Shown piece by piece: positions 12,932 to 34,823 of a DNA stretch of 34,823 nt. Position 1 is the first letter of the stretch, and every line of letters starts with the position of its first letter. Below the pieces are notes generated by a model that was given only the letters and a program-made list of their open reading frames with translations, was not told the DNA's origin and did not search any database. A program made the translations under genes and the position numbers. Location: positions 1-34,823 of the forward strand of contig PWWM01000251.1 of assembly GCA_003561495.1 (NCBI GenBank), given 5' to 3'. This stretch comes from Gammaproteobacteria bacterium. GTDB lineage: Bacteria > Pseudomonadota > Gammaproteobacteria > Xanthomonadales > Wenzhouxiangellaceae.

Positions 12932-12980
12932 CTCGTTCAAGACCCGGTGTTAGTTGAGTCCTCGAAATCTGAACCTGACA

Positions 12981-13463: not shown

Positions 13464-13495
13464 CCCCTGAATCCTGACCCCTTAAACCTTGAACC
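13461..13495. repeat. Degenerate heptanucleotide array, consensus TGAACCC, 5 units
   Basis: tgacccc tgaatcc tgacccc ttaaacc ttgaacc, starting at the stop codon of the regulator; reverse complement of the GGGTTCA array at 17831. Confidence 0.65.
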
Positions 13496-13505
13496 TTTCT
13501 TTTAT

Positions 13506-14396: not shown

Positions 14397-15706
14397 AGAT
14401 TATCGATACCGCCTCGATCAGTGAACGAGCACTTGATCAGATTCTCGCCCGCCCCGCCCTGGAAACCGATGCCGAATTGCGCGCCGCAGTCGCCGACATC
14501 ATTGCCGCGGTCGCAAGCGACGGCGACCGGGCCGTGCTGGAATTCGGCCGGCGCTTCGACGGGCGCGAACCCGAAAGCCTGCTGGCCTCGCAATCACAGA
14601 TCGAGTCGGCCGCGGGCCAACTGGATTCGGAACTGCTCGCCGCCATCGATACCGCCATCGACACCGTCACCCGTTTTCACGAGGCCGGCATTCCGACCGA
14701 CCAGTGCGTGGAAACCGCACCCGGGGTGATTTGCGAAGCACGCTGGTCACCAATGGATCCGGTCGGGCTGTACGTCCCGGCCGGGACCGCCCCGTTGCCT
14801 TCGACGGCCATCATGCTCGGCGTGCCGGCACGCCTGGCCGGTTGTCGCCAGATTGTCCTGGCCACGCCGCCGGGCGCGGATGGTCGCGCCGACCCGGCCG
14901 TCCTGGCCATTGCCGCGCGTCTCGGAATCGAGACCGTGCTGGTCGCCGGAGGCGCCCAGGCCATTGCGGCCATGGCCCTGGGCACGGCCTCGGTGCCGGC
15001 GGTCAACAAGACCTTCGGGCCCGGCAATCGTTTTGTCACCGAGGCCAAGCGGCAATTGGCCGAGCGGGCCGATGGCGCGGCCATGGACCTGCCTGCCGGC
15101 CCATCGGAAGTGCTGGTGGTTGCCGATGACAGCGCCAACCCGGAATTCATCGCCATCGATCTGCTCTCGCAAGCCGAACACGGTCCGGACTCGCAGGCCT
15201 TTCTGGTCACCACCAGTCCGCAGCTGGCTGACCAAGTCAACCAGGCCATCGAGGCGCTCATGAAAAAACTGCCCCGGGCCGAAACGGCCGGCCAGGCACT
15301 GACCCATGGCGCCATCCTGGTCACTGACACGATGGATCAGGCCATGGCGGTCTCCAACCGCTATGCGCCCGAACACCTCATTATTGCCTCGGATGATGCC
15401 GAGGCCCTGGGCATGCAGGTCATCAACGCCGGCTCGGTCTTTCTCGGCCATTACACGCCAGAAGCCCTTGGCGATTACATCTCCGGCACCAACCATGTCC
15501 TGCCCACCGGTGGCTGGGCGCGCATGACCGGTGGCTTGTCGGTGATTGATTTCATGCGTCGAACGACCTTTCAGCAGGCCAGCCCCGAAGGCTTGCGCAC
15601 ACTGGGCCCGCCCGGCGCCCGTCTGGCTGCCCATGAAGGCCTCGATGCCCACCGCCTGGCCATTCAATTGCGTCTCGAAGCGCTCGATCGCGAGTCGGGT
15701 CCATGA
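14393..15706 (+). CDS. hisD: Histidinol dehydrogenase
   Basis: PVGLYVPAGTAPLPSTAIMLGVPA, VNKTFGPGNRFVTEAKRQL, MDLPAGPSEVLVVADDSANPEFIAIDLLSQAEHGPDSQ, YAPEHLII; start at 14393 overlaps the hisG stop. Confidence 0.98.
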   Translation: MKIIDTASISERALDQILARPALETDAELRAAVADIIAAVASDGDRAVLEFGRRFDGREPESLLASQSQIESAAGQLDSELLAAIDTAIDTVTRFHEAGIPTDQCVETAPGVICEARWSPMDPVGLYVPAGTAPLPSTAIMLGVPARLAGCRQIVLATPPGADGRADPAVLAIAARLGIETVLVAGGAQAIAAMALGTASVPAVNKTFGPGNRFVTEAKRQLAERADGAAMDLPAGPSEVLVVADDSANPEFIAIDLLSQAEHGPDSQAFLVTTSPQLADQVNQAIEALMKKLPRAETAGQALTHGAILVTDTMDQAMAVSNRYAPEHLIIASDDAEALGMQVINAGSVFLGHYTPEALGDYISGTNHVLPTGGWARMTGGLSVIDFMRRTTFQQASPEGLRTLGPPGARLAAHEGLDAHRLAIQLRLEALDRESGP

Positions 15707-16761
15707 ATCCGCTCGACCTGGCCCGCCCGGACATCCTGGCGCTCAAACCCTATGCCTCGGCGCGTGTCCTGGCCGACAGCGCCGGCATCCTGCTCAATGC
15801 CAATGAAAACCCCTGGCCGCCGCCGGGCGATGACGGTCTTGCGCTCAATCGCTATCCGGACCCGCAACCGCCGGCATTGAGACACCGGCTGGCCGAGGAG
15901 TATGGCGTCGACCCTGAAAACCTGCTGATCACCCGCGGCAGCGACGAGGGCATCGATCTGCTGACCCGTGCGTTCTGCCGTGCCGGCCAGGACCAGGCAC
16001 TGATCTGTCCGCCGTGTTTCGGCATGTATGCCTTGTATGCGCGCATCCAGGGCGCCGGGGTGGTCGAAGTACCGCTCATCGAAAAGGACGATCAATGGCA
16101 GGTCGATTTCGAGTCGATCGCATCGGCGCCGGACTGCCGACTTTACTTTCTGTGTTCACCGAACAACCCGACCGGCAACGGCATGGACCCGAATGCCGTC
16201 ACACAACTGGCTCGACGAATAGAAAACCATGGCCTGGTCATCATCGACGAGGCTTACCAGGAATTCTCCGAACAGCCCTCGCTGATCGAACACCTGGACG
16301 ACTGCCCCAACCTGGTCGTGCTGCGCACCCTGTCCAAGGCCCATGGGCTGGCCGGATGCCGGATCGGCGCGCTCATCGCTGCGACCGACATCATCGAATT
16401 GCTGCGGCGAATTCTCGCCCCTTACCCATTGCCGACCCCGTCCATCCGGGCCGCGCTGGCCGCGCTGGACAACGCTTCGCAACGCCGCCGGCAACTCGAT
16501 GAAATCCGCCGTCAGAAACAGCGCCTGATCGAAATACTCGACCAGCACCCCCAGATTCACCAGTACTGGCCCGGATTGGCCAACTTCGTCCTGGTTCGGG
16601 CCAGTGACGGGCCGGGGCTGGTCGCCGATGCGGCCAGTGCCGGCATTCGCCTGCGCGATCAGTCATCGCAACCGGGATTGGCCGATTGTGTCCGCATCAC
16701 CATCGGCACCAAGACCGAAACCACGGCGCTGATCGAATTTCTCAAGAGGTGGCGAACATGA
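15703..16761 (+). CDS. hisC: Histidinol-phosphate aminotransferase
   Basis: LLNANENPWPPPG, RGSDEGIDLLTRAFCR, LCSPNNPTGN, IIDEAYQEFS, LRTLSKAHGLAGCRIG. Confidence 0.98.
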   Translation: MNPLDLARPDILALKPYASARVLADSAGILLNANENPWPPPGDDGLALNRYPDPQPPALRHRLAEEYGVDPENLLITRGSDEGIDLLTRAFCRAGQDQALICPPCFGMYALYARIQGAGVVEVPLIEKDDQWQVDFESIASAPDCRLYFLCSPNNPTGNGMDPNAVTQLARRIENHGLVIIDEAYQEFSEQPSLIEHLDDCPNLVVLRTLSKAHGLAGCRIGALIAATDIIELLRRILAPYPLPTPSIRAALAALDNASQRRRQLDEIRRQKQRLIEILDQHPQIHQYWPGLANFVLVRASDGPGLVADAASAGIRLRDQSSQPGLADCVRITIGTKTETTALIEFLKRWRT

Positions 16762-17822
16762 GCCGAAAAAAGATTCTTTTCATTGACCGCGACGGCTGCC
16801 TGATCGAGGAGCCCGAAGACGAACAGGTCGACCGCTTCGAGAAGTTCCGGTTGATGCCGAATGTCATTCCCGCATTATCGCGACTGAAAGGAGCCGGTTA
16901 TCGCTTTGTCATGGTGAGCAACCAGGACGGACTGGGTACTGAATCCTTTCCCGAACAGGACTTCATTGGCCCGCACGAGCTGCTGCTGCAGATTCTTTCT
17001 TCCCAAGGCATCGCGTTTGACGCCGTCCATATCGACCGGACGCTGCCGGCCGATAACGCCCCGACCCGCAAACCCGGGGTCGGCATGCTGCTGGAGTATC
17101 TGCGCGATCCCGGTCTGGATCGCAACCGCTCGGCGGTTATTGGCGATCGCGAAACCGACCTGGAGCTGGCCGATAACATGGGCCTGCGCGGCTACCGGAT
17201 CAGCGAGGAAATGGGCTGGAACGAGATCGCCGATGCCCTGCTGGATCAGCCGCGCACCGGCTCGGTCGAGCGAAACACCCGGGAAACGACCATTGCGGTG
17301 GCCGTCAACCTCGATCAGTCCGCCCCGGTGACCATCGACACCGGCATCGGGTTTTTCGACCACATGCTCGAACAAGTGGCCAGCCACGGCGGTTTCGCCC
17401 TGGAACTCCAATGCAGCGGTGACCTGCATGTCGACGAACACCACACCGTCGAGGATTGCGCGCTGGCCCTGGGCAGCGCTCTGGACCAGGCGCTGGGCGA
17501 TCGCCACGGCATTGGACGCTATGGTTTCACCCTGCCGATGGATGAATCCCTGGCCAAAGTCGCTATCGATCTGTCCGGGCGGCCGGTATTCGTGCTCAAC
17601 GGCGAATTTCCGCGCGAGTCCGTCGGTGGCCTGCACACCGAGATGGTGGGTCATTTCTTTGCCTCGCTGGCCCAGACGCTTCGCTGCGCGCTGCATATCG
17701 ACTTGAGCGGTGACAATACCCACCACATGGTCGAAGCCTGTTTCAAAGGCGTGGGTCGGGCGTTGCGACCGGCGCTGGCGACCGGCGCGGCCGGCATGCC
17801 CTCGACCAAAGGGGTGCTTTGA
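16758..17822 (+). CDS. hisB: Bifunctional histidinol-phosphatase / imidazoleglycerol-phosphate dehydratase
   Basis: N-terminal HAD KILFIDRDGCLIEEP; C-terminal IGPD GIGFFDHMLEQVASHGGF, VDEHHTVEDCALALG, DNTHHMVEACFKGVGRAL. Confidence 0.98.
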   Translation: MSRKKILFIDRDGCLIEEPEDEQVDRFEKFRLMPNVIPALSRLKGAGYRFVMVSNQDGLGTESFPEQDFIGPHELLLQILSSQGIAFDAVHIDRTLPADNAPTRKPGVGMLLEYLRDPGLDRNRSAVIGDRETDLELADNMGLRGYRISEEMGWNEIADALLDQPRTGSVERNTRETTIAVAVNLDQSAPVTIDTGIGFFDHMLEQVASHGGFALELQCSGDLHVDEHHTVEDCALALGSALDQALGDRHGIGRYGFTLPMDESLAKVAIDLSGRPVFVLNGEFPRESVGGLHTEMVGHFFASLAQTLRCALHIDLSGDNTHHMVEACFKGVGRALRPALATGAAGMPSTKGVL

Positions 17823-17830
17823 AGATGCAA

Positions 17831-17858
17831 GGGTTCAGGGTTCAGGGTTCAGGGTTCA
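17831..17858. repeat. Four perfect tandem copies of heptamer GGGTTCA
   Basis: gggttca gggttca gggttca gggttca fills most of the 49-nt hisB-hisH gap. Confidence 0.95.
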
Positions 17859-17871
17859 AGGGGGGAGTTTG

Positions 17872-18468
17872 GTGAGTATTGTGGTGATCGATACGGGGGG
17901 CGCCAACTTGGCTTCGGTGGTGCATGCCATTCATCGGCTGGGGGCGGAATGTTCGTTGACCAGTCGGGCCGAGCGGATTCGTTCCGGCTCCCGGGTCATC
18001 CTGCCGGGCGTGGGCTCGGCCGGTGCGGCCATGGCGGCATTGCGCGAGGCCGGCCTGGTCGAGGTCATTCGCTCACTGACCCAGCCGGTGCTGGGCATTT
18101 GTCTCGGTCTGCAGTTGCTCTACGAGCGTTCCGATGAAGGTGGCACGGAATGTCTCGATCTGATTCCCGGAACGGTCCGCAAGCTCCAGGTTCCCGATCA
18201 ACTGCGCCTGCCGCACATGGGTTGGAGTCAGCTTGATTGGCGCAGGGCGGATGATCCGCTGGCCCGAGGGGTGGATGCCGATGACTGGTACTACTTCGTT
18301 CACAGTTTCGCCGCGCCCACCGAACATGCGATTGCCACCGGCAAGCACGGTCGGCCATTCGCCGCGATCGTGCGCAAGGACAACTTTGCCGCCTGCCAAT
18401 TCCATCCGGAAAAATCGGCGGGTGCCGGTGCGCGGATTCTGGCCAACTTCCTGGAGTCGCAATCGTGA
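17872..18468 (+). CDS. hisH: Imidazole glycerol phosphate synthase subunit, glutamine amidotransferase
   Basis: GTG start preceded by aaggggggag SD; IVVIDTGGANLASVVHAIHRLGAE, VILPGVGSAG, PVLGICLGLQLLYERSDEGG, LPHMGWSQLDW, FAACQFHPEKS. Confidence 0.96.
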   Translation: MSIVVIDTGGANLASVVHAIHRLGAECSLTSRAERIRSGSRVILPGVGSAGAAMAALREAGLVEVIRSLTQPVLGICLGLQLLYERSDEGGTECLDLIPGTVRKLQVPDQLRLPHMGWSQLDWRRADDPLARGVDADDWYYFVHSFAAPTEHAIATGKHGRPFAAIVRKDNFAACQFHPEKSAGAGARILANFLESQS

Positions 18469-18511
18469 ACAATAATGCAGTTCAGAGTTTCACACTATCA
18501 GGGAGCATGCA

Positions 18512-19246
18512 ATGATCATCATCCCAGCCATTGATTTGCGTGGCGGCCGCGTGGTTCGTCTGGAACAGGGCGACTACGAGCGCGAAACCCGCTACCCGGA
18601 GGACCCGATCGAGCTGGCCCTGCGTTATCAAAAGGCCGGCGCCACCTGCCTGCATCTGGTCGACCTGGACAGTGCCCGCGATGGTGGCGAAGCGAACCTG
18701 AAAATCATCCACGCCATCTGTGGCGCCGTCGACATCCCGGTGCAAACCGGCGGCGGGGTTCGTTGCCTGGAAGATCTCACCCAACGCCTGGAAGCCGGAG
18801 CCAAGCGAGTCGTGGTGGGCAGTTTGTGCGTGAAGCGCCCGGAAGTGGTCTGCAGTTGGCTGGACAGTCTCGGCGGCGATTGTCTGGTAGCCGGACTGGA
18901 TGTTTCGCGTGGAGTGGATGAGGCCTGGTTTCCGCATGCCAGCGGTTGGTCCGAGGCCGGAGACACCGACCTGTTCACCCTGCTCAGCCGCTTCAGCGCC
19001 GCCGGCCTGGTCCACCTTTTGTGCACCGATATCGAGCGTGATGGCATGTACCTGGGTCCTTCGATCACTCTGTACCAATCCATTGCCAATGAATTTCCCG
19101 CCCTGAAAATTCAGGCCTCGGGTGGCATTGGTTCGCCGGATGATCTGGAGTCGGTATCCAGAACCGGCGTGGACGGGTGCATCGTCGGCCGCGCCCTGCT
19201 CGAAGGGCGAGTGCCATTGAAGGAGATCGAACGATGGTCGCGATAA
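18512..19246 (+). CDS. hisA: Phosphoribosylformimino-5-aminoimidazole carboxamide ribotide isomerase
   Basis: [79 protein letters not shown]. Confidence 0.98.
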
Positions 19247-20019
19247 GAATCATTCCCTGCCTGGACGTGCGCGACGGGCGGGTGGTCAAGGGGGTGCGTT
19301 TTCGCAACCACCGCGAAATGGGCGATATTGTCGAGCTGGCCGGGCGCTACCGTGACGAGGGCGCGGACGAGCTGGTCTTCTATGACATCACCGCCAGCCC
19401 GCAAAAACGCAGTGTCGACACCGACTGGATTGCGCGCGTGGCCGAGGCGATTGACATTCCCTTTTGTGTCGCCGGCGGCATTCGCGATATTGCCACCGCC
19501 CGCGCCGTGCTGCATGCCGGCGCTGACAAGATCTCGGTCAACTCGCCGGCCCTCGAGCGTCCCGAGCTGATCGCTGAACTGGCCGCCGAATTCGGTTCGC
19601 AATGCGTGGTCGTGGGGATTGATTCCATCCGCGAAGGCGATCAATTCCGGGTTCGCCAGTACACCGGAGACCCGGACAATATGGTCGACCCGCGTCGCAA
19701 CACCTTGGAATGGGTCAGCGAAGTTCAGCGCCTGGGCGCCGGAGAAATCGTGCTTAACTGCATGGATGCCGATGGCGTGCGCTCGGGTTATGACATCGAC
19801 CAGCTCAGTCGCGTGCGCGCCATCTGCCGGGTGCCGCTGATCGCATCGGGTGGCGCCGGGGCGCCGGAGCATTTTCTGGAAGTCTTTCGCCAGGCCGATG
19901 TCGATGGCGCGCTGGCCGCGACCGTGTTTCATTCCGGGGAGATTGCCATTCCCGATCTCAAGGCCTGGCTGGGCCAGTCCGGCATTGTCACCCGCATCAA
20001 GTCACCGGAGGCAGCATGA
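19234..20019 (+). CDS. hisF: Imidazole glycerol phosphate synthase cyclase subunit
   Basis: [91 protein letters not shown]; start corrected to 19234. Confidence 0.98.
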
Positions 20020-20636
20020 ACACCGAATGGCCCGAACTGGACTGGGACAAGATCGACGGACTGACGCCGGCGATCATCCAGGATGCCGGCGATGGCCGGG
20101 TACTGATGCTGGGTTACATGAACCCTCAAGCCCTGAAAGTCACCCTCGAGTCCGGCCGCGTGACCTTTTTCTCACGCAGCAAGCAGCGCCTGTGGACCAA
20201 GGGCGAGACCTCCGGTCACTTCCTGGAACTGGTCGATATCCGTTGCGACTGCGATCGCGACACACTATTGATCCAGGCTCGACCCCACGGACCCACCTGT
20301 CACCTGGGCACCACCACCTGCTTTGGCGAGACTCACTGGCCGGCGATCGGCCAACTCAACCGACTGGAACGAACCATCCATGAGCGCGCACAGGACGGTT
20401 CCGAGTCCAGTTATACCCGCAAGCTGCTTGAACGCGGCGCCGAGCGCTGCGCCCAGAAAGTCGGCGAAGAAGGCGTGGAAGTCGCGCTGGCCGCAGCGAC
20501 CGGCGAAAGGGAAAAACTCGCCGAGGAAGCCGCCGACCTGCTCTATCACCTGCTGGTTTGCCTGAAATCAGTCGATGTCGATCTCGACCAGGTCCTTGAA
20601 GTCCTGAAAAGCCGGCACCGTTCAGTCACCCAGTAA
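20016..20636 (+). CDS. hisI: Bifunctional phosphoribosyl-AMP cyclohydrolase / phosphoribosyl-ATP pyrophosphatase
   Basis: His[52 protein letters not shown]; His[43 protein letters not shown]. Confidence 0.98.
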
Positions 20637-21395
20637 CTGGGGGTCAACCGCCGGCTTGGCCTGGATCTCGGGACGGGCAAAGTAGAAACCCTGGAAGTGA
20701 TCCACTCCGGCACACTGCTTGAGCCACTCGACTTCCTCGGCACGTTCGACACCGGCGGCGATGACGCCAATATCCAGCGCTCGGCAGGTCGCCACCATGC
20801 CCAGCACCATGGCCTGGCGCCGACGGCTGGAATGGATCCCGTTGATGACTTCGCGATCCAGCTTGATGAAGTGCGGCCGAAACACCACCAGCCGTTTCAG
20901 ACCGGCCTCGCCGGTACCGAAATTGTCGGCCAGCACCCGAAACCCGGCGTCCTCGGCCTTGTCGTGTGCCGCCGCCAGCTCACGTGGGTTGCCCAGTCGC
21001 GCCAGGCTGGAGAATTCCAGCACGATCCGACCACGATCAAAACCGGCCCGGTCGGCCTTCCGGCGAGGGACCGCCAGCATCTGATCAACGTTGCCCGGAG
21101 TGATCTGGGTGCAATTGAGAAAAAGGTTGGAGCCTATGCCCAACGCGGCGGCATCCTGTATGGCGCGGGTACGACAGGCCTGATCGAAGTAGGCCAGGTT
21201 TTCCGGTCTCACATTGGCAATGATGCTGCTGGCCGGTTCACCGGAACGACCGCGAACCAGCGCCTCGTAGCCGAACACCCGCCCGACGCCAAGCTGGACA
21301 AGCGGCTGAAAGGCAAACTCGATGCCAACCCCGATGACTTCGGTGTAGTCGTCAAGTTTCGGGTCGTGATCGGTGGCCATGGTTGCCTCGAACAT
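20622..21395 (-). CDS. EAL-domain protein, probably degenerate
   Basis: FQPLVQLGVGRVFGYEALVRGRSG, NLFLNCTQ, VLEFSSLA, VLADNFGTGEAGLKRL, FIKLDREVINGI, IAAGVERAEEVEWL, QGFYFARP. Start 21395 (or 21380) chosen over the TTG at 21473. Confidence 0.88.
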   Translation of the reverse strand: MFEATMATDHDPKLDDYTEVIGVGIEFAFQPLVQLGVGRVFGYEALVRGRSGEPASSIIANVRPENLAYFDQACRTRAIQDAAALGIGSNLFLNCTQITPGNVDQMLAVPRRKADRAGFDRGRIVLEFSSLARLGNPRELAAAHDKAEDAGFRVLADNFGTGEAGLKRLVVFRPHFIKLDREVINGIHSSRRRQAMVLGMVATCRALDIGVIAAGVERAEEVEWLKQCAGVDHFQGFYFARPEIQAKPAVDPQLLGD

Positions 21396-21631
21396 AAGTC
21401 GATTCCCTGTTGAATTGTAAGCGTTGATAGTCAGGAAAACAGAAATTCCTTTCTCCTGCCAACGATAATTCAACTTTCATGCCAACGTGTTGAACCTGAT
21501 GGGTGGATCACGCCCGAACCAGCAAAACGAGCCGATGTTTTACCAGTCAGTGACTGGCTCAGTTCTGAATCATGACTCGTCGGGACCATTCCGACCCAAT
21601 CACGACCTGATCGGACCCGAGCCGACCCGAT

Positions 21632-23983: not shown

Positions 23984-24652
23984 TCAGCGAATTCTTCGAA
24001 GCATGTGCTCGCGCCGGGCCAGACGGGCCCAGAACCGTCCACAAACAAACCAGCACACGTAGGCCGCCTCGCGAATGCTGTGCCAGAGGTTGGCCGGCGT
24101 CGGCCGGAAAGCCCGTTCAGCCGGGACCAGATGAACCTGCATGCCAAGCTGATTGGCAAAGATGCGTAGCCGACCCAGGTGGTAACGGCTCGACAACAAG
24201 TAGGTCGGCGTGTCCTTTTCAATCAGGTCACGGGCATGACGAAGATTCTGCAGGCTGTCGGTGGATTCCTCTTCGAGTTCGATGCGTCCCGGGTCAATGC
24301 CTGCCTGATGCATCAGCCAGTCGCGTCCGGCCGCCGCCTCGGATGGCTGGCCACCCCCCAGAATCACCAGGCGCAGGTCAGGCTGGCCAACGACCAGCTC
24401 GGCCGCACGCTCCAGGCGCTTTCTGAAATCGGGCGAGGGTTGACCCTGATCAAGCTGGTGGCCACACACCAGCATCACTCCCTCGGTCGGCCTGACGTTG
24501 GCCGCCAGCATCCAGCGCCATACCCACAGCCAGGCCACCAGCCAGCTCAGACCGACACTGAGGATCAGCATGATCAAGGCGACCACCAGCGATTCACGCA
24601 CGGCCGGATCACGCCACACCTCACCCGGCGTGCGCGGCGTTGACTGATTCAT
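23984..24652 (-). CDS. YdcF/SanA-like DUF218 membrane protein
   Basis: N-terminal TM (ALIMLILSVGLSWLVAWLWVWRW), VMLVCGHQLDQGQPSPDFRKRLERAAELV, LRLVILGGGQPSEAAAGRDWLMHQAGIDPGRIELEEESTDSLQNLRHA. Confidence 0.85.
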   Translation of the reverse strand: MNQSTPRTPGEVWRDPAVRESLVVALIMLILSVGLSWLVAWLWVWRWMLAANVRPTEGVMLVCGHQLDQGQPSPDFRKRLERAAELVVGQPDLRLVILGGGQPSEAAAGRDWLMHQAGIDPGRIELEEESTDSLQNLRHARDLIEKDTPTYLLSSRYHLGRLRIFANQLGMQVHLVPAERAFRPTPANLWHSIREAAYVCWFVCGRFWARLARREHMLRRIR

Positions 24653-24744
24653 GCGCCTTACTCCCCGAACCCGGTCGAATTGCGCATCGCCGGTTCATCC
24701 GGGTTATGATTTGTGACGATTTCGTGGATCAAGATGAATTTCCC

Positions 24745-25920
24745 GTGCATGTAACGTCCATGACCCTGTCGTGCGCAGCTGGCCAGGGTCTCGCCGCACT
24801 CCGTCAAGCCTTGGCCGAGCAACGCTCCGGTCTGCGCACCAATGATTTTCCCGGTTGCGAACTCGACACCTGGATCGGTCGGGTCAGTGGTGTTGAGGAT
24901 ATCCGATTCGACCCCGACCTGGCCGAGTACGATTGTCGCAACAATCGCCTGGCCCTGATCGGCCTGGAGCAGGATGGTTTCGTTCAGGCCGCCGAAGCAC
25001 TCAGGAAACGATACGGTCGCGAACGCATCGCCTGCGTGATCGGCACCAGCACCGCCGGAATCGGCACCACGGAAGCCGCCTATCGTGACCTGGGCGAGGA
25101 CGAACACTTCGACCCGGCCTACCTGTTGCCGCGCGTGCATACCCCGCACACATCGGCCGCGTTTGTCGCCAGGGTCCTGGGACTGAACGGGCCGGTGGTG
25201 ACTATCTCCACAGCCTGCTCCTCCAGCGCCAAGGTCTTTGCCACCGCGGCCCGCCTGGTCGATGCCGGCCTGGCCGATGCCGCCGTGGTCGGCGGCGTCG
25301 ACAGCTTGTGTCTGTCGGTGCTCTATGGCTTTCATTCTCTGGAGCTGGTGTCCGATCAGCCCTGCCGCCCCTTCGACCGCGCCCGCAAGGGCCTGAGCCT
25401 GGGTGAGGGTGCCGGTTTCGCTATCCTGGAAAAAACGCCCGAGCAATCACTCGGACGCCTGCTGGGCTGGGGCGAAAGCTCCGATGCCCACCACATGGCC
25501 TCACCGCATCCTGAAGGCGCCGGGGCCGGGGCCGCCATGGCCGGGGCCCTGAAACGTGCCGGCCTGGACCCGCAAGCCATTGGCTATATCAATTGCCACG
25601 GCACGGCCACCCCCCTCAATGACCAGGTCGAAGCCCGGGCCATACGTCGCATCTTTCCGACGCCACCTCCGGCGGCCTCGACCAAGGGCTGGACCGGCCA
25701 CACGCTGGGTGCGGCCGGCATTGCCGAGTCGGTCTTCAGTCTGCTGGCGCTCAATGATGGCTACCTGCCCGCCGGTCTGAACCTGACCGAACCGGAACCC
25801 GACTGGGAGGATTTCATCCTGCTTGAGCCGGTCGAAAAGCAGATCGATGCGGTGCTCAGCAATTCGTTTGGCTTCGGCGGCAGCAACTGTGCCCTGATTT
25901 TCGGGCGGGAAGGCGCATGA
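24745..25920 (+). CDS. Beta-ketoacyl-ACP synthase (KAS I/II family), aryl-polyene type
   Basis: VTISTACSSSAKVFATAARL (Cys), INCHGTATPLND (His), KGWTGHTLGAAGIAE (His), NSFGFGGSNCALIF. ORF runs from 24640 but 24640-24652 overlaps the divergent gene; start likely GTG 24745 or ATG 24760. Confidence 0.93.
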   Translation: MHVTSMTLSCAAGQGLAALRQALAEQRSGLRTNDFPGCELDTWIGRVSGVEDIRFDPDLAEYDCRNNRLALIGLEQDGFVQAAEALRKRYGRERIACVIGTSTAGIGTTEAAYRDLGEDEHFDPAYLLPRVHTPHTSAAFVARVLGLNGPVVTISTACSSSAKVFATAARLVDAGLADAAVVGGVDSLCLSVLYGFHSLELVSDQPCRPFDRARKGLSLGEGAGFAILEKTPEQSLGRLLGWGESSDAHHMASPHPEGAGAGAAMAGALKRAGLDPQAIGYINCHGTATPLNDQVEARAIRRIFPTPPPAASTKGWTGHTLGAAGIAESVFSLLALNDGYLPAGLNLTEPEPDWEDFILLEPVEKQIDAVLSNSFGFGGSNCALIFGREGA

Positions 25921-26708
25921 ATATCGACTTCGACATACTCGGCGCCGGAATCTGCGCACCCGGATTGCCGGACTGGGAAGCCTTGCTTACCGCCCTGGCC
26001 GGCCGGGGTCTGAGTGAAGACCGCAAGGCCCAGCCATCGGCGCTTTTGTCACCACGCGAGCGCCGCCGGGCGCCGGCGGCGGTCAAGCTCAGTTTCGCCG
26101 CCGCCGAACAGGCCTGCGCCATGGCCGGGCTGGAACCGGCCGAACCGGTGGCCGTGTTCAGCTCGGGCATGGGCGACCTGCAAATCACCGATTACATGTG
26201 CCGCACCCTGGCTGAACAACCTGACCTGCTCTCCCCGACCCGGTTCCATAATTCGGTGCACAACGCTGCTTCCGGCTACTGGTCGATCGGCGCCGGAGCC
26301 ACCGGCGATGTGACCGCAGTTTCAGGCTGGCGCGACAGCGCCCTGGTCGGTCTGCTCGAGTGCCTGTCGAGGATCCACCATGAGCAGCAACCGGTTTTGC
26401 TGGTGGTCTACGACGATGTCGCCTGCGGTCCGATGCGCGACCTGTGGCCGACCGAACAGCCATTCTGCGCCGCCATGGTGATGGCCCGGCCCGGCAATTC
26501 GGCAGCCGTGTCCCGATTGCAGGCCACCGTCGGTCGTGACCGCGATCCACACGACGAGCTGCCCGAGCCGCTGCAAGCGCGCATCGTCGACAACCCGGCG
26601 GCACGCATCCTTCCGCTAATGGCCCTGGTCGCGGGCCACACCTCGGGTCCCGTCACCCTGGCCGGCGAGCAGGGGCTCAGCCTGGAATTTCAGGTGCCCA
26701 TTCCGTGA
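25917..26708 (+). CDS. Beta-ketoacyl synthase-like chain length factor (ketoacyl-synt_2 type)
   Basis: 263 aa; VAVFSSGMGDLQITDYMCRTLAEQPDLLSPTRFHNSVHNAASGYWSIGAGATG is KS-like but the Cys nucleophile region is replaced; 4-bp overlap with the KS gene. Confidence 0.85.
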   Translation: MNIDFDILGAGICAPGLPDWEALLTALAGRGLSEDRKAQPSALLSPRERRRAPAAVKLSFAAAEQACAMAGLEPAEPVAVFSSGMGDLQITDYMCRTLAEQPDLLSPTRFHNSVHNAASGYWSIGAGATGDVTAVSGWRDSALVGLLECLSRIHHEQQPVLLVVYDDVACGPMRDLWPTEQPFCAAMVMARPGNSAAVSRLQATVGRDRDPHDELPEPLQARIVDNPAARILPLMALVAGHTSGPVTLAGEQGLSLEFQVPIP

Positions 26709-27454
26709 AAACCGCGGTTGTAATCCCGGCGCGCAATGAACAGCGCACCATCCGTGAGGTGGTCGCGGCTGCCCGCGACCAGGTCGACCAGGTCATTGTC
26801 GTCGACGATGGCTCGACCGACCGCACCTTGGAATGCCTGGAAGGATTGACCGTCGATATCGTTCGGCACGAGCACTCGCGCGGCAAGGCCGCGGCCCTGG
26901 CCACCGGTTTCGAGCACGCGCTGGTCGGTGACTGTGACTGGGTCATCACCCTGGACGGTGACGGCCAGCACGACCCGGCCGACATCGAGCGTTTGCTGGA
27001 GGCGGCGAATGTCTGGCCGGACCATCTGATCATCGGCGCACGCATCCGCCAGCGCCACCGCCAGCCCGGCATCCGTCGATTCGCCAATCGCTTTGCCGAT
27101 TTCTGGATTTCATGGGCCAGTGGCCAGCGCGTGCCCGACAGTCAGACCGGCTTTCGCGCCTACCCGCGCGCGCTCCTGGAAAAGATCCGACCGTCCACGC
27201 GCAAAAAGCATGGTTTTGTCTTCGAGACCGCCATGCTGATCGACGGCGCGCGCGCCGGTCACCGCTGTGTGGCCGTGCCGATCGACAGCGTTTACCACGA
27301 CAATGCCCGTCCCAGCTATTTCCGTCCGGGGCGGGATGTCTGGGAAATATTCTGGTTCGTGTGGTGGCGGATCTGGCTGTGGGGCTTGTATCTGCCCGGC
27401 CTGTGGCGCATGCTGACCACCAAGACCCGCTTTCACGACCCGAAATCGTCGTGA
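26705..27454 (+). CDS. Glycosyltransferase family 2 (dolichol-phosphate-mannose synthase-like)
   Basis: TAVVIPARNEQRTIREVVAAARDQVDQVIVVDDGSTDRT, VITLDGDGQHDP; C-terminal hydrophobic segment. Confidence 0.92.
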   Translation: MKTAVVIPARNEQRTIREVVAAARDQVDQVIVVDDGSTDRTLECLEGLTVDIVRHEHSRGKAAALATGFEHALVGDCDWVITLDGDGQHDPADIERLLEAANVWPDHLIIGARIRQRHRQPGIRRFANRFADFWISWASGQRVPDSQTGFRAYPRALLEKIRPSTRKKHGFVFETAMLIDGARAGHRCVAVPIDSVYHDNARPSYFRPGRDVWEIFWFVWWRIWLWGLYLPGLWRMLTTKTRFHDPKSS

Positions 27455-27509
27455 AGGAATCCTGTATGTCGTGCCTGTACAATCATCGTTTTGAATCTCC
27501 CAGTTCCTG

Positions 27510-29150
27510 ATGGCCATGCAATCCGACATTGTCATTCTCGGTGGTGGTCTGGCCGGCATGACCCTGGCCCTGCAGATTCGGGGCCGTCACCCCCAGGCAA
27601 CCATCAAAGTCATCGAACGCCGTATTCACCCGGTCCCGGTTTCGGCCCACAAGGTCGGCGAATCCACCGTCGAGATTGGCGCCCATTACCTGGCCGATGT
27701 CATCGATTTGCGCGAACACCTGGAAAGTCATCATCTGCGCAAATATGGCTTGCGCCTGTTTTTCGGCGCCGACAAGACCGGCGACCTGGCTGATGCTGCC
27801 GAACTCGGAGCGAGCCACTTGCTGACCTTGCGCAGCTACCAGATCGATCGCGGCGTGCTGGAAAACCACTTGGCCGAGCGGCTGAAATCCTCCGATATCG
27901 AATTGATCGGCGACGCAACCGTACGCGCCATCGAGCTGGCCGAGGAGACCAACGAGGATGGCCTGCACCAGGTCAGCTACCGGACCGATGGCCAGACCCA
28001 AACGCTACGGGCGCGCTGGGTGGTCGATGCGATGAGCCGGGGTTCAATCATCAAGCGCCACCTCGACCTGTCCGAGGACAACGGTCATGAGTGCTCATCG
28101 GTATGGTTCCGGATCGCTGATCGTATCGATATCGGCCAGTGGAGCGGCAGTGCCGAGTGGCAGCAACGCTGCAATCAGCTGCCGCGCTGGCTGTCGACCA
28201 ACCACCTGGTCGGACCCGGCTACTGGGTCTGGCTGATTCCGCTGGCCTCGGGCTCGACCAGTATCGGCATCGTGTTCGACAATCGCCTGCATGACTTCGA
28301 CCAGCTCAAGACCTGGGAGGGCACCCTGGACTGGCTGGCCGAACACCAGCCGCTGTGTCGGCGGGCCATTGACGAATCGGACGGCCAATTGCAGGATTTT
28401 CTCTACCTGCGCAATTTCTCGCATGGCTGCAAGCAGGTCTTTTCTCCGCGCCGCTGGGCACTGACCGGCGAAGCCGGCGTCTTTCTCGATCCCTTTTATT
28501 CGCCCGGCAGCGATTTCATCGCCATCAGCAACACCTATATCACCGACTTGATCTGTCGCGATCTGGCCGGTGAACCATTCGCCCGCCAGGCCCGGCTCTA
28601 CGAACGCAGCTTTTTCTCCTTTTACCAGTCCTCGCTGCAGCTTTACCGGGATCAGTACCCGTTGTTTGGCCACGCCCGGGCGATGAGCGCCAAGACCATC
28701 TGGGACTATGCCTACTACTGGTCCATTCTGGCGCTGTTTGTGTTTGCCGACCGCCTCACCGACACAAAGTTGTTCCTTCGCAACGGCGTCATCCTCGACC
28801 AGGTCCGTCAACTGCATGACCAGATGCAGGCCATGTTCAGAACCTGGGCCAGCGAAGAAACCGAGGTGAACTCGACGGGTCTGTTCGTCAACCAGTCGGA
28901 ACTGCCGCTGCTGGTTCGTCTCAACCGCGAACTGTCCGAAGTCGCCGATGATGACGATGCCGAGCTGGATGCGCGCCTGGCCGCCAACTGCCGCATGCTG
29001 CATGCGCTGGCCGCTGAAATGCGTGAACTGACGCCGGAGGCAGCCGCCGAATGCGTCAGCCTGCACCGGGTCGATCCGAACCTCGACCAGCCCTTGCTGA
29101 CCGGTTTGCCTGAGCGCTTTGTCCGCGGTTCCGAGCCCGTCGTGGCCTGA
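27510..29150 (+). CDS. FAD-dependent oxidoreductase, tryptophan-halogenase-like
   Basis: DIVILGGGLAGMTLALQI (GxGxxG-type), HKVGESTVEIGAHYL, GYWVWLIPLASGSTSIG (WxWxIP), FLDPFYSPGSDF. Confidence 0.85.
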   Translation: MAMQSDIVILGGGLAGMTLALQIRGRHPQATIKVIERRIHPVPVSAHKVGESTVEIGAHYLADVIDLREHLESHHLRKYGLRLFFGADKTGDLADAAELGASHLLTLRSYQIDRGVLENHLAERLKSSDIELIGDATVRAIELAEETNEDGLHQVSYRTDGQTQTLRARWVVDAMSRGSIIKRHLDLSEDNGHECSSVWFRIADRIDIGQWSGSAEWQQRCNQLPRWLSTNHLVGPGYWVWLIPLASGSTSIGIVFDNRLHDFDQLKTWEGTLDWLAEHQPLCRRAIDESDGQLQDFLYLRNFSHGCKQVFSPRRWALTGEAGVFLDPFYSPGSDFIAISNTYITDLICRDLAGEPFARQARLYERSFFSFYQSSLQLYRDQYPLFGHARAMSAKTIWDYAYYWSILALFVFADRLTDTKLFLRNGVILDQVRQLHDQMQAMFRTWASEETEVNSTGLFVNQSELPLLVRLNRELSEVADDDDAELDARLAANCRMLHALAAEMRELTPEAAAECVSLHRVDPNLDQPLLTGLPERFVRGSEPVVA

Positions 29151-30134
29151 TCAGCCGCTGGTGACCGCCTCGATCTCGACCAGCAGGTCCGAACGGCAGA
29201 TATCCCCGCGAAGCCCGATGACCGGTGTGTCCGGCCAGGCCGAGCGCAATTGCTCGCGAACCTGCGGCCAGTGCTCGGCATGGCGGACATAGGCCCGCAA
29301 CAGGCTGTGCACGCCGAACTCGCCCAGCGCCGGGCGTCTCAGGCGCTGGGTGCTTTCCTTGAGCACGGTGTCCAGGTTGACGATGATTTCAGCCGTCTGG
29401 GCCTCCAGGTCGCCTTCATGCAGGGTGCGATGACCGACCACGCTGGCGGTGCCTGAAATCATCAAAAAGGCGCTGCCATCGGGCTGGCCGATGGCCGTGG
29501 CGCGCGCAAAGGACGGGCTGCGCGGGCCGTAAATGCGCGGATAGCGGTAAGCGCTGACCTGGCGTGGGTTCTCGATATTGATCCCGCCATGGCGACCGGT
29601 CAGAACCATGACGCGCAGATGGGGATCGTCACCACCAATGGCCGTTCCCGCACACAGTTCGCGATCACCAATACCGGCCGCTTCCAATGCTCGCGCGCGT
29701 CCCAGGCAGAATCGGCGATAGCGTTCGTCGTCACCTTCGCCACGATTGATCGCCGGCATGAAATTCCAGGCACGAATGAGCGTCGGACAGCCTTGCATCT
29801 TGGCCAGGGCAAGGATCTCGCCGTAAAGCCTCTCGGTCATTCCCGCCGGGTCAGTGCGACCGTCATCGGCACATTCGCAGGCGATGTACAGGAGATGGTC
29901 AGCTTGGCAGAAACGCAGATCGCCATGCCGACCACTCTCGGCCTTTGCGGGAATCAGCCAGTGTTCCTCGACCTGGTCACCGCCCAGCAGCTCCAGACCA
30001 ATCTGGTCAAAGCCCGGACGCGGCTGGTCGAACGCGAACCGCATCAGCGCCTCCGAGCCCGAGCTGGCCGAGGCGCTGATTCGAATGCCGGCGCGACTGG
30101 CCGGCTTGATCAAGCCGGCTTCAGTGACCACCAT
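29151..30134 (-). CDS. xanB2: XanB2/FkbO/Hyg5-like chorismatase (3-hydroxybenzoate synthase-like)
   Basis: YIACECADDGRTDPAGMTERLYGEILALAKMQGCPTLIRAWNFMPAINRGEGDDERYRRFCLGRARAL, SAYRYPRIYGPRSPSFARAT, LMISGTASVVGHRTLHEGDLEAQTAEIIVNL match the chorismatase family as I know it. Start 30134 or 30152. Confidence 0.88.
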   Translation of the reverse strand: MVVTEAGLIKPASRAGIRISASASSGSEALMRFAFDQPRPGFDQIGLELLGGDQVEEHWLIPAKAESGRHGDLRFCQADHLLYIACECADDGRTDPAGMTERLYGEILALAKMQGCPTLIRAWNFMPAINRGEGDDERYRRFCLGRARALEAAGIGDRELCAGTAIGGDDPHLRVMVLTGRHGGINIENPRQVSAYRYPRIYGPRSPSFARATAIGQPDGSAFLMISGTASVVGHRTLHEGDLEAQTAEIIVNLDTVLKESTQRLRRPALGEFGVHSLLRAYVRHAEHWPQVREQLRSAWPDTPVIGLRGDICRSDLLVEIEAVTSG

Positions 30135-31479
30135 CGAACTCCACCCGGGCATTTTTCAGGCGCTGACGACGCGAGCGCAAAGTGGCCGGCAAATCGGCCA
30201 GGCTGACCAGCCAGAAAACCAGGCGGAAGGCGCGCAAACGCCAGCGAACCCGCCAGTTGTCGTACAAATCACCGGCCAGGGCCGACACCACCGCCGGCTT
30301 GATCTGAAACGCCGTCTGCGAGCTCAGAAACAAACGACGCATGGCCGGCGTGGGAAAACGATAGATCAGCCAGGCCAGTTCATTGACCCCTTGCCGGATC
30401 CGCTTGCGAAACTGGCTGCGGGCACGCTCGGAGGCGCGACGGTCACCGGCCAGTTCGGCCAGGATCACTTCGGCGCCCAGCTCGGCACTGTGCATGCCGA
30501 AATACACCCCGGATGAAAAAACCGGATCAATGAAGATCCCGGCATCACCAACCATCAGCCAGCGCTCGCCATCAAGCCGACGCGAAAAATAGGAGTAGTT
30601 GCCGGTCGCAGTAATCGGAGAAATCAACTCGCCGCGAGACAGGCGTTCCCAGGCATGGCGGTTGCGCTGGATGGTGGCGTGAAAAAAGCTCTCCACGTCG
30701 CGACCACGCCGGCGCAGGTATTCGGGATTGCAGACCGCACCGACACTCATGACGTTGTCCGGCAGCGGAATCATCCAGATCCAGCCCTGATCAAACCAGT
30801 AGATGCTGATGTTTCCGGCCGCCTCTCCGCCACGCCGCGGCACATCGCGAAAATGGCCGTACAGGGCCGCGGTGGCATGTTCCCGATTGCGTTCCTGCAG
30901 ACCGAAACGCCGCGCCAGTACACAATCCCGGCCGCTGGCGTCGACCACAAAGCGGGCCCGGATCCGCCGCCGCGCAGCTTCCTGCTCCACCTCAAGTTCG
31001 ACCCCATCACCGGCTTCGAAATCAACTTCGCGCACGCGTGCATTCATGGCCAGATGCGCACCGCACCGGCCGGCATGCTCGAACATCATGCGGTCCAGAT
31101 CCGAGCGCAATACCTGGAACGCGTGGTCGCAACCCTCGGCCTGATCCAGCGCATCCCGAAAACGGATTTCATGAGTATGCTCTTCCTCGTCATCGGTGGT
31201 GAAATCCACTCCCGGTTTCCGCACGCCGATCGCTTCAAGTTCCTGTTCCAGGCCCAGGCGTCGAAAAATCGGCAGGTTGTACGGTAAAAGGGATTCTCCG
31301 ATGTGAAAGCGCGGATGCTCATCCTTTTCCAGCACCAGGACGCGATGGCCACGCTCGGCCACCAGGCTGGCCAGGGTCGACCCGCTTGGCCCACCGCCAA
31401 TGACGGCGACATCAACCTGATCGGGCAACGGCACATTGGTGCTTGGATCGGACAAGTGGTCGAGGCTTCCTGTGAGCAT
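30121..31479 (-). CDS. NAD(P)/FAD-dependent oxidoreductase, halogenase-like
   Basis: VDVAVIGGGPSGSTLASLVAERGHRVLVLEKDEHPRFHIGESLLPYNLPIFRRLG, GWIWMIPLPDNVMSVGAV (WxWxIP), WLMVGDAGIFIDPVFSSGVYFGMHSAEL. Confidence 0.9.
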   Translation of the reverse strand: MLTGSLDHLSDPSTNVPLPDQVDVAVIGGGPSGSTLASLVAERGHRVLVLEKDEHPRFHIGESLLPYNLPIFRRLGLEQELEAIGVRKPGVDFTTDDEEEHTHEIRFRDALDQAEGCDHAFQVLRSDLDRMMFEHAGRCGAHLAMNARVREVDFEAGDGVELEVEQEAARRRIRARFVVDASGRDCVLARRFGLQERNREHATAALYGHFRDVPRRGGEAAGNISIYWFDQGWIWMIPLPDNVMSVGAVCNPEYLRRRGRDVESFFHATIQRNRHAWERLSRGELISPITATGNYSYFSRRLDGERWLMVGDAGIFIDPVFSSGVYFGMHSAELGAEVILAELAGDRRASERARSQFRKRIRQGVNELAWLIYRFPTPAMRRLFLSSQTAFQIKPAVVSALAGDLYDNWRVRWRLRAFRLVFWLVSLADLPATLRSRRQRLKNARVEFDGGH

Positions 31480-31668
31480 AATACTGACCTTGTATTATAA
31501 TCCACAGGTCACTACAGGCAGTGACACAGAATCCCGGCGCACTGCGTAGTAATAGCAGCCCGACCCTAATTCGCATGATTCTAAAGAAAGACCGGCAGCA
31601 CGACCCTGGATGTCCAGAACAAGGGGGCGGCCGTCTTCAGTCAAACAAAGATTCCTGGAGGAATATCA

Positions 31669-31938
31669 ATGAGTGCCGAGCAGACGCCGAGTGAGCGCAA
31701 ACTGGCCGAGCTGATCGTCGAATCGCTCAATCTCGAGGACATCGAGCCCGAGGAAATCGAGCCTGAAAAACCCCTGTTCGGCGATGAGTATGGGCTCGAT
31801 TCCATCGATGCGCTCGAGCTGGCACTGGCCATTTCCAAAACCTATGGCGTCCAGCTCAGGGCTGATGATGAGAAGAATCGGCACGTGTTCGCCAACCTGC
31901 GCTCGCTCAATGCCCATATCGAATCCTTGAGCGGCTGA
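31669..31938 (+). CDS. Acyl carrier protein
   Basis: 89 aa acidic; FGDEYGLDSIDALELALAISKTYGV phosphopantetheine attachment motif (DSI); GGAGG SD upstream. Confidence 0.95.
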   Translation: MSAEQTPSERKLAELIVESLNLEDIEPEEIEPEKPLFGDEYGLDSIDALELALAISKTYGVQLRADDEKNRHVFANLRSLNAHIESLSG

Positions 31939-31943
31939 CATCC

Positions 31944-32582
31944 GTGACCGCCGCCAGCGCCCAACCGCCCAACCCGATCGCCTTGCGTCTGGCCGCCCTG
32001 CTGGCCTACCCGTTGCTGGTCATTGTGGCGTTGTGGCTGCAGCAACCGGCCTTGCGCGCTCTGGGACTTCCGCTGCTGGCCGTCGCCCTGGTCGGACTGT
32101 GGCCGGTGCATACCGCAGGTCGCGTGGTTCTCCTGGCCAGCCTCCTGCTGGCTGCGCTGGTGGTCAGTCTGCCGAGCCTGGCGCTGTGGCCGCCCGGGCT
32201 GGCCTGCCTGGCTGTGGCGGCCTGGTTTGCATCCACGCTCAGGGCTGACTCGGACCCGGCCATCAAGCGTTTTGCGCGTGCCGTGCATGACCATCTCGGC
32301 ATGACCCTGCCGGCCGAAACCGATGGCTGGACCCGGGTCTGGACAGGCATCTGGGTGGTGCTGCTGAGTCTGATCGGCAGCGTGGCGATCGCACTGGCCG
32401 TCATCAATCAGGCCGGCTGGTGGCTGACCTGGATACTGGCCATTGCCCCGCTGATGGCAGTCAGCACCCTGATTCTGGAACATGTTCTGCGCCGGCGGCG
32501 CTTTCCCGACCATCATCCACTCACACTCGGGCAGTTTCTGATCACGCTGGTGCGCGTGCGACCGGAGCAACTGGGCCGATGA
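31944..32582 (+). CDS. Membrane protein of aryl-polyene clusters (COG4648-like)
   Basis: 212 aa, multiple TM; position between ACP and AMP-ligase; FARAVHDHLGMTL, VLRRRRFPDHHPLTLGQFL. Family assignment from context. Confidence 0.7.
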   Translation: MTAASAQPPNPIALRLAALLAYPLLVIVALWLQQPALRALGLPLLAVALVGLWPVHTAGRVVLLASLLLAALVVSLPSLALWPPGLACLAVAAWFASTLRADSDPAIKRFARAVHDHLGMTLPAETDGWTRVWTGIWVVLLSLIGSVAIALAVINQAGWWLTWILAIAPLMAVSTLILEHVLRRRRFPDHHPLTLGQFLITLVRVRPEQLGR

Positions 32583-33910
32583 GCAAGCTGCCACTGATGA
32601 CCCGTGAGCTCGATGATGTCATCGCCTGGCGGGCAGGCCGAACGGTCACGGCCGCCGAGTTCATCTTCCAGGCCCGCTGGCTGGCCGACAGGCTGCGTCG
32701 CGAGGACCAGGTCATCAATCTTTGCCAGGACCGTCACACCTTCAGCCTGGCCTTTGCCGCGGCCATCCTGGCCCAGACCACCACCTTGCTGCCGGCCAAC
32801 CGTCTGCCCGACACGGTGGACGCGCTGGTCAATCGCTATCCCGGTTGCCTGATTCTCAGCGACCAGGCCATTGACGGGCTGCACCATCCCATGCTCGATC
32901 CCGGCATGGCGCTTGACCAGTCCGGTCGCGCCGAGCAGGTGCCCGAACCGGATGAGTCCCTGCTGGCCGCGGTAGTGTTTACCTCCGGCAGCACCGGCCC
33001 GTCCTCGGCAGTCGAAAAGCCGTGGCGCACCCTGCATGACTCCAGCCTGATCAATGCCGCCGAGTATGGACCGCAGGAACGGGCTCACGTACTGGCCACC
33101 GTGCCGCCACAACACATGTGGGGGCTGGAAACCTCGGTGTTGCTGCCGTGGTTCGGGCCGGCCATCATTGCCAGCGCCCAGCCGTTCTTTGCCGCCGACA
33201 TCATCGCCCTGCTCGATCAGTTGCCACGGCCGCGAGCCCTGGTCTCGACACCGATCCACTTGAGAAATCTGGCTGAATCCGGCTTCGACATTCCAACCAT
33301 CGATCGCATTTACTCGGCCACCGCGCCGCTGGGCGCGAAACTGGCCGGCGAACTGGAGCGGCAAACCTCGGCGCGAGTCACCGAGGTCTATGGCTGTTCC
33401 GAAGCCGGCTGCCTGGCGCACCGCCGCGCGGCACGCGATGAGCCCTGGCAACTGTTCAAGGCCTTTTCCCTGCTCGAGGACCACGGACAATTCCGGGTCC
33501 ATGCCGAACACCTGCCCGAGGACGTCACCCTGCTCGATCACCTGGACGTGCTCGATGACGGTCGCTTTCGCCTGGCCGGCCGCCATGGTGACCTGGTCAA
33601 TATTGCCGGCAAGCGCGCCTCGCTGGCCGAGCTGACCCAGCGGCTGCTGGATATCAGCGGCGTGACCGATGGGGTGATTTTCCAACCGCCCGAGAACGAT
33701 GAGGGCCGGGTCACCCGCCTGGCCGCGCTGGTGGTCGCCCCGCAATTGAGCGAACGCCAGATTCGCCAGGCCCTGTCCAGGCGCATCGACCCGGCTTTCA
33801 TGCCGCGCCCCTTGCGCCGGGTCCCAGCCCTGCCGAGAGCCGAGAGCGGCAAACTGCCCCATCAGTCCCTGGTCCATTTCTACCAACAGGTCTGCGAGCC
33901 GGCTCGATGA
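32579..33910 (+). CDS. AMP-dependent acyl/aryl-CoA (ACP) ligase
   Basis: AAVVFTSGSTGPSSAVEKPWRTL, IYSATAPLGAKLAGELERQTSARVTEVYGCSEAG, RFRLAGRHGDLVNIAGKRASL, LPRAESGKLPHQSL. Confidence 0.93.
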   Translation: MSKLPLMTRELDDVIAWRAGRTVTAAEFIFQARWLADRLRREDQVINLCQDRHTFSLAFAAAILAQTTTLLPANRLPDTVDALVNRYPGCLILSDQAIDGLHHPMLDPGMALDQSGRAEQVPEPDESLLAAVVFTSGSTGPSSAVEKPWRTLHDSSLINAAEYGPQERAHVLATVPPQHMWGLETSVLLPWFGPAIIASAQPFFAADIIALLDQLPRPRALVSTPIHLRNLAESGFDIPTIDRIYSATAPLGAKLAGELERQTSARVTEVYGCSEAGCLAHRRAARDEPWQLFKAFSLLEDHGQFRVHAEHLPEDVTLLDHLDVLDDGRFRLAGRHGDLVNIAGKRASLAELTQRLLDISGVTDGVIFQPPENDEGRVTRLAALVVAPQLSERQIRQALSRRIDPAFMPRPLRRVPALPRAESGKLPHQSLVHFYQQVCEPAR

Positions 33911-34215
33911 CCGAAGTCAGGGTGGACTACACCGAGGCCGACGATCACCCGGCCCTGCCGGGACATTTTCCCGGCCACCCGGTCATCCCCGGCGTGGTCT
34001 TGCTGGGTCGGGTGCATGAGCTGGCCCGCGAGCAACTGGGGTTTTCGTCCGGAGCCAGCCGCTGGCAGCGCATCAAGTTTCTGCGACCGGTCGGGCCCGG
34101 ACAGACCTGCACGATCACCCTGGACGGTGACCGGGAGGCGTTTTCCTTTGTCATTACCACCGACGGGAATCAGCCGGTGGCCCGTGGACAGTGTCGACAT
34201 GTCCCACTGGCGTGA
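33907..34215 (+). CDS. FabA/FabZ-like hotdog dehydratase (aryl-polyene type)
   Basis: 102 aa; GHFPGHPVIPGVVLLGRVHELA, IKFLRPVGPGQTCTITL. Confidence 0.88.
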   Translation: MTEVRVDYTEADDHPALPGHFPGHPVIPGVVLLGRVHELAREQLGFSSGASRWQRIKFLRPVGPGQTCTITLDGDREAFSFVITTDGNQPVARGQCRHVPLA

Positions 34216-34823
34216 GCGCCCGGAGGGCGGCAACCGCTTCTGGCTGGCCCTGATTCGCTGGGTCATCCTCAACATCGGGCGCGGTTTCGCCCAGTTCTTC
34301 ATGGTCCCGACCGCGCTGTATTTCTACCTGGTTCGGGGTGTCGAGCGCCGCGCCTCAAAGCGCTGGCTTGAACAGGTCCAGGCGCCGCGCCGCGGCTTTG
34401 TCGGCGTGATCACTCACATCTATACGTTCGCCATCACCATTGTCGACCGGGTGCTGCTGCTGGCCGGTCGCGAGGATGAGCTCGATATCCGCGCCGAAGG
34501 CGTCGATGAACTGATCGAGGTGCTGCGCAATGGCAACGGCGCCCTGCTGCTGGGTTCGCACCTGGGCAGTTTCGAGGCCATTCGAGTGTTCAGCCGCAAA
34601 GCGCCGGAGGAGTGCCGCTACCTCAAGGTGGTCATGGACCGCCAGCAGAACTCGCTGATCACCCGCATGCTCGAGGAGATCAATCCGGACATTCGCGATA
34701 CGGTCATCGATGCCCGCCAGCCCGGTCCGCAGATCATCCTGCAAGCCTCCGAGGCGCTGTCGGAAGGGGCAATGGTGGCCATGCTGGCCGATCGAATCTA
34801 CCGCTCGGAAGCCTCGGTCAAGG
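34199..34823 (+). CDS. Lysophospholipid acyltransferase-like (LPLAT/HtrB-type) protein, 3'-truncated by window end
   Basis: Read by hand: MSHWRERPEGGNRFWLALIRWVILNIGRGFAQFFMVPTALYFYLVRGVERRASKRWLEQV...LLLGSHLGSFEAIRVFSRK...MVAMLADRIYRSEASVK; not in the ORF track because it has no stop. Confidence 0.88.
   Translation, partial: MSHWRERPEGGNRFWLALIRWVILNIGRGFAQFFMVPTALYFYLVRGVERRASKRWLEQVQAPRRGFVGVITHIYTFAITIVDRVLLLAGREDELDIRAEGVDELIEVLRNGNGALLLGSHLGSFEAIRVFSRKAPEECRYLKVVMDRQQNSLITRMLEEINPDIRDTVIDARQPGPQIILQASEALSEGAMVAMLADRIYRSEASVK

Follow-up and report, generated by a model that had tools for sequence, protein, structure and literature searches.

Several described pigment systems resemble the locus reported here. 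In the arc system of Azoarcus, ArcB makes 3-hydroxybenzoate (3-HBA) and ArcT activates it. In Lysobacter, the ketosynthase (KS), half-size chain-length factor (CLF), acyl carrier protein (ACP) and ketoreductase (KR) are each required for the yellow xanthomonadin-like pigment (PMC3691225). The ApeO-ApeC complex of X. doucetiae has been solved (PDB 6QSP; PMC8358021). In Xanthomonas, gene order around the KS/CLF pair of the pig/xan cluster is said to vary, and XanB2 also provides 4-hydroxybenzoate (4-HBA) for ubiquinone, replacing UbiC. Here, we analyze a 34,823-bp stretch of DNA (the window) from a Wenzhouxiangella-like bacterium. The window makes up the whole of contig C231 in a metagenome-assembled genome (MAG) of 2.55 Mb (257 contigs, 73% complete), and eleven pigment genes lie near its end, at 24.7-34.8 kb. 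Judged by its gene content, this region represents the 5′ two-thirds of an aryl polyene cluster of the xanthomonadin/arcuflavin type, a kind of cluster known to make yellow membrane pigments. As the window is the entire contig of an incomplete MAG, the cluster is cut off at the contig end.

We consider it very likely that this is a xanthomonadin-type aryl polyene cluster and that its chorismatase probably also supplies 4-HBA for ubiquinone, with the chemistry, products, transcription and ubiquinone supply predicted from the genes.

Gene content of the pigment locus

Based on strand and spacing, the genes fall into three putative transcription units: KS, half-size CLF, a family 2 glycosyltransferase (GT2) and flavin adenine dinucleotide (FAD) enzyme 1 on the plus strand; chorismatase and FAD halogenase 2 on the minus strand; and ACP through acyltransferase on the plus strand. 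All eleven genes named in an earlier, sequence-only reading are present, on the strands it gave. Between the minus pair and the divergent ACP operon lies an intergenic region of 189 bp (31480..31668), which probably contains promoters; relatives keep this arrangement. The region has no sigma-70 consensus; the consensus scan returned 0 sites, versus 2.3 expected by chance. Rfam and tRNA scans returned nothing useful.

The KS (ApeO/ArcK-like; 24640..25920, plus strand) scores 498.6 bits against the dedicated model NF006618 (cut-off 407), has 6qsp_A as its top PDB match, and contains the motifs CSSS, HGTAT and KGWTGH. Its start had been placed at 24745, which is one of four candidates (24640, 24706, 24724 and 24745). 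The adjacent half-size CLF (25917..26708, plus strand), similar to ApeC and Lysobacter ORF16, matches PF13723 with 85.5 bits (cut-off 25) and carries the invariant HNSVHN; the top PDB match of its profile (A1) is 6qsp_B (E = 3.8e-18). The two neighboring genes, in other words, match best the two chains, A and B, of the ApeO-ApeC complex. The GT2 follows (26705..27454, plus strand; PF00535, 95.9 bits), and is dolichyl-P-mannose-synthase-like, as is Lysobacter ORF15.

The second plus-strand unit opens with the ACP (31669..31938; NF006617, 119.7 bits, cut-off 70; PF00550; motif GLDSI). Next comes a membrane protein in the position of ArcU/ApeG (31944..32582), which matches no family and occupies the same position in relatives, at 44-75% identity. 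The adenosine monophosphate (AMP)-dependent acyl-ACP/coenzyme A ligase (32579..33910; PF00501, 50.1 bits; TSGSTG) resembles ArcT, XanA2 and ApeH and is also 4-coumarate-ligase-like; its open reading frame (ORF) opens at 32420, with a likely start at 32579. A putative hotdog dehydratase (33907..34215; ApeI/ArcS-like) shows a sub-threshold FabA/FabZ match and the motif HFPGHP, and is kept in relatives. The last gene, the 5′ part of a lysophospholipid-type acyltransferase (34199..34823), runs off the contig. It is 93% identical to the full-length protein of the closest relative, G025, which passes PF03279 (45 bits, cut-off 22.3). For the chorismatase and ACP, identity to G025 is 77% and 96%, respectively.

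G025 also shows how such a locus continues. Beyond the acyltransferase lie genes for LolA_3, an MMPL transporter, an ApeP-like dehydratase and a FabG-like KR, followed by a PAS-GGDEF-EAL protein and DUF418. The same LolA, MMPL, ApeP-like dehydratase and FabG-like KR genes lie downstream in G026, G024, G003 and G015. The KR, LolA and MMPL genes that the sequence-only reading foresaw beyond the contig end are therefore found there in the closest relative, together with a second, ApeP-like, dehydratase. Nor did either of the sequence-based outcomes that it had named as contrary evidence materialize: KR comes next in G025, and KS and ACP are not assigned to an unrelated pathway but pass their dedicated models. 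The KS is FabF-like and the KR FabG-like, as would be expected if the genes belonged to some unrelated type II pathway for fatty acids or polyketides. The dedicated models, the match of KS and half-size CLF to both 6QSP chains, the presence of a chorismatase and an aryl ligase, and the conserved arc order make that extremely unlikely. The xanthomonadin-type assignment is further borne out by gene content and order matching Azoarcus arc and Lysobacter (PMC3949708, PMC3691225).

Instead of a xanthomonadin that is free or anchored to a lipid, the product could be a polyene-dialkylresorcinol (DAR) ester of the flexirubin/arcuflavin type. In its gene order and its paired halogenase and chorismatase, the locus is similar to Azoarcus arc, which yields a polyene-DAR hybrid, and the KR and LolA are weakly similar to flexirubin models. 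On the other hand, no DarA or DarB gene lies in the window or beside the G025 cluster, the parts searched for them. We regard a DAR ester as improbable.

Two genes point to halogenation of the pigment. FAD enzyme 2, in the position of ArcA (30121..31479, minus strand), matches PF04820 with 77 bits, and its closest PDB structures are the FADH2-dependent halogenases 5buk, ChlB4 and PltA. FAD enzyme 1 (27510..29150, plus strand) also retrieves PDB halogenases and matches PF04820 (Trp_halogenase) weakly (25.4 bits). Both carry the halogenase motifs WxWxIP and Fx2Px2SxG (WVWLIP and FLDPFYSPG in enzyme 1; WIWMIP and FIDPVFSSG in enzyme 2), and in both a Lys (RKYG/RKPG) lies, as judged by eye, at about the catalytic position of CmlS/PltA. 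Enzyme 1 is best read as a remote member of the halogenases. The weak score of enzyme 1 and the additional matches to monooxygenase families would also fit hydroxylases or other flavin oxidoreductases, and a pigment without halogen. We think this unlikely, given the motifs shared by both proteins and the solved relatives of enzyme 2. Moreover, brominated pigments are known from Xanthomonas clusters with such genes, and none from Lysobacter, which lacks them.

These assignments suggest a pathway. The chorismatase would convert chorismate to 3-HBA, and probably some 4-HBA, and the AMP-dependent ligase would load the aryl starter onto the ACP. The ApeO-ApeC-type KS/CLF, KR and dehydratases would then extend the starter to an aryl polyene (PMC8253772), whose ring is probably brominated by one or both flavin halogenases, as in Xanthomonas. 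The acyltransferase and GT2 may attach the polyene to a lipid anchor, and the LolA and MMPL proteins may carry the pigment to the outer membrane.

Chorismatase and the supply of 4-hydroxybenzoate

The chorismatase (29151..30152, minus strand) belongs to the XanB2/Hyg5 family (PF21168, 104.6 bits) and aligns to Hyg5/FkbO structures. In its CRSDLLVEIE motif, both the Cys and the catalytic Glu are present. Using the residues described in PMC7170507, we find equivalents of the Hyg5-type Gly-240 and Cys-327, along with the catalytic Glu-334, in SGTASV and DICRSDLLVEIE; we left out Gly-164, the first CH-II marker residue, since its placement was uncertain. Whether such an enzyme makes 3-HBA only (CH-II, as Hyg5) or both 3-HBA and 4-HBA (CH-III, as XanB2) is a question that sequence alone cannot decide (PMC3949708).

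Of greater interest is how the genes are distributed. We compared 30 genomes of the genus, comprising the window genome and 29 others. The chorismatase is present in 28 of them, the CLF, our marker for the cluster, in 13 and UbiC in none, while UbiA was matched in 61/61 relatives searched. With UbiC absent from the genus and UbiA present, the chorismatase probably feeds ubiquinone too. It is thus predicted to be the cell's source, and probably the only one, of 4-HBA for this purpose. Across 299 genomes of the order, 259 have the chorismatase, 4 have UbiC over the cut-off, none have both and 36 have neither (Fisher P = 2.8e-4). One genome outside this sample, G045, has both genes.

Several observations weigh against the overall reading, on the ubiquinone side as well as the pigment side. 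In the congener G019 (99% complete), UbiA is present and neither chorismatase nor UbiC was detected. Together with the 36 of 299 genomes of the order without either gene, G019 indicates that another route to 4-HBA exists or that genes were missed. Within the cluster, hidden Markov models give little evidence for two of the genes: the membrane protein matches no family and the dehydratase falls below threshold. Their assignments hence draw mainly on position and conservation. The KR and exporter genes are known in relatives and in no part of the window's own assembly: a search of the MAG for the rest of the cluster gave no MMPL match, and the other matches were short and stray, apart from the window end. 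Finally, a methyltransferase, a thioesterase, a second ACP and an ApeR-type KS were not seen, either within the cluster or beside it.

Chorismatase lineages that share a chromosomal site

Chorismatase is also found in genomes of the genus that lack the cluster. In 14 of these, the gene adjoins the creatininase gene that is also found upstream of the window cluster; on the other side is DUF418 in 9 and the next flanking gene in 2 (G014 and G018). The creatininase neighbor is shared by the early-branching G007, G020 and G023, suggesting that the site ancestrally held a solo chorismatase.

We compared the window chorismatase with those of its relatives (L003-L027 and L090-L095). In the resulting tree, the 13 cluster-bearing genomes of the genus form one supported clade (98/94), and the cluster-less genomes form another (98/96, without G030). 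By contrast, trees of HisD and of the unlinked AlaRS mix cluster-bearing and cluster-less species. A single clade of cluster-bearing species is rejected by HisD (P = 4e-5) and AlaRS (P = 1.5e-77), and the HisD groupings are rejected by the chorismatase (P = 6e-6 and 2e-129); in both cases the groups were named after seeing the trees, making these P values too favorable. Chorismatases hence group by the presence or absence of the cluster and not by species, despite occupying one chromosomal site.

Thirteen alignment columns separate the two lineages fully. Convergence at the active site can be ruled out as the sole cause of the split, which is retained in 88% of bootstrap trees when these columns are removed and in 100% with the N-terminal half of the protein. 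The C-terminal half keeps it in 46%, so some convergence is possible.

How did the two lineages come to share a site? Either the pigment cluster travels together with its own chorismatase, which displaces the resident gene, or an ancestor carried both lineages and one of them was lost in each species. With UbiC missing, nearly all species would have to retain a chorismatase, so that gain or loss of the cluster would be accompanied by chorismatase exchange or reciprocal loss. We tentatively propose, as a plausible scheme that is somewhat less than an even bet, that the gene occurs at this site in two forms, one solo (creatininase-chorismatase-DUF418) and one belonging to the pigment cluster, that exchange or reciprocal loss goes along with the pigment genes, and that the 13 residues may mark a shift in product. 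On this hypothesis, the pigment form may yield 3-HBA and 4-HBA, and the solo form mainly 4-HBA. The same locus with and without pigment genes amounts to a natural experiment on XanB2, which is known to serve both pigment and ubiquinone synthesis. It makes a question testable: does losing the pigment pathway alter the product spectrum of a shared enzyme of primary metabolism?

Other features of the window were recorded as well. Upstream of the pigment locus (13152-20636), a Trp-repressor-like gene precedes a histidine operon of hisG, hisD, an aminotransferase gene and further genes to hisIE; this synteny is kept across much of the genus. Cyclic di-GMP genes occur on both sides of the cluster, with an EAL gene in the window (20622-21473) and the PAS-GGDEF-EAL gene downstream of KR in G025 (L050, 15462-17969). 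At 1e-5, no Pfam family matches the long ORFs at 6682-8247 (minus strand), 1452-2585, 2582-3058 and 12007-12957 (the last three on the plus strand).

Comparison with described clusters

The exact three-unit layout was found in the congeners G025, G026, G011, G024 and G003. Its second half was seen in G015 and in the Wenzhouxiangellaceae MAG L028, whose chorismatase is 63% identical to that of the window. Outside the genus, in Dyella, G039 and G053, the chorismatase and the ACP operon again point away from each other, with the KS unit elsewhere or in another order. The suggestion that the layout is lineage-specific therefore holds for the exact order of the three units and fails for the divergent chorismatase/ACP arrangement, which is shared with other families. 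The exact layout is best described as characteristic of the genus and derived from an older arrangement.

We found no description of a xanthomonadin-type locus in Wenzhouxiangellaceae in the open-access literature; a conserved locus of this type, with two halogenase-like genes, is now added to the family. The ape clusters of E. coli, Xenorhabdus and Acinetobacter share with it the ApeO-ApeC pair and counterparts of ApeH, ApeI, ApeP, ApeQ, ApeM and ApeL. Unlike the window cluster, E. coli ape obtains 4-HBA from UbiC, has ApeR, two ACPs, a methyltransferase and a thioesterase, and contains neither chorismatase nor halogenase. The xanthomonadin-like cluster of Lysobacter enzymogenes OH11 is closer in content (KS and half-size CLF, GT2, ACP, two dehydratases, KR, LolA, acyltransferase and chorismatase; PMC3691225), but lacks a halogenase and has a different gene order. 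By published descriptions, Xanthomonas pig/xan likewise combines a XanB2-type chorismatase, aryl ligase, halogenase and type II polyketide synthase (PMC3691225, PMC3949708).

Azoarcus sp. BH72 arc, which directs arcuflavin synthesis, provides the match in gene order. Its arcV-U-T-S-R-Q-P series corresponds to the plus-strand operon that starts with the ACP (ACP, U, AMP-dependent ligase, dehydratase, acyltransferase, LolA and exporter), its arcB-arcA pair to the minus-strand chorismatase and adjoining halogenase, and in both systems a half-size CLF adjoins the KS (PMC3949708). The arc genes are spread over two unlinked loci and include a methyltransferase, DAR genes and a two-component system, whereas the window cluster occupies one locus, with two halogenase-like genes and no methyltransferase seen. 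Overall, the cluster is an ordinary but well-supported further example of the known aryl polyene clusters of xanthomonadin type; more unusual is the lineage pattern of its chorismatase.

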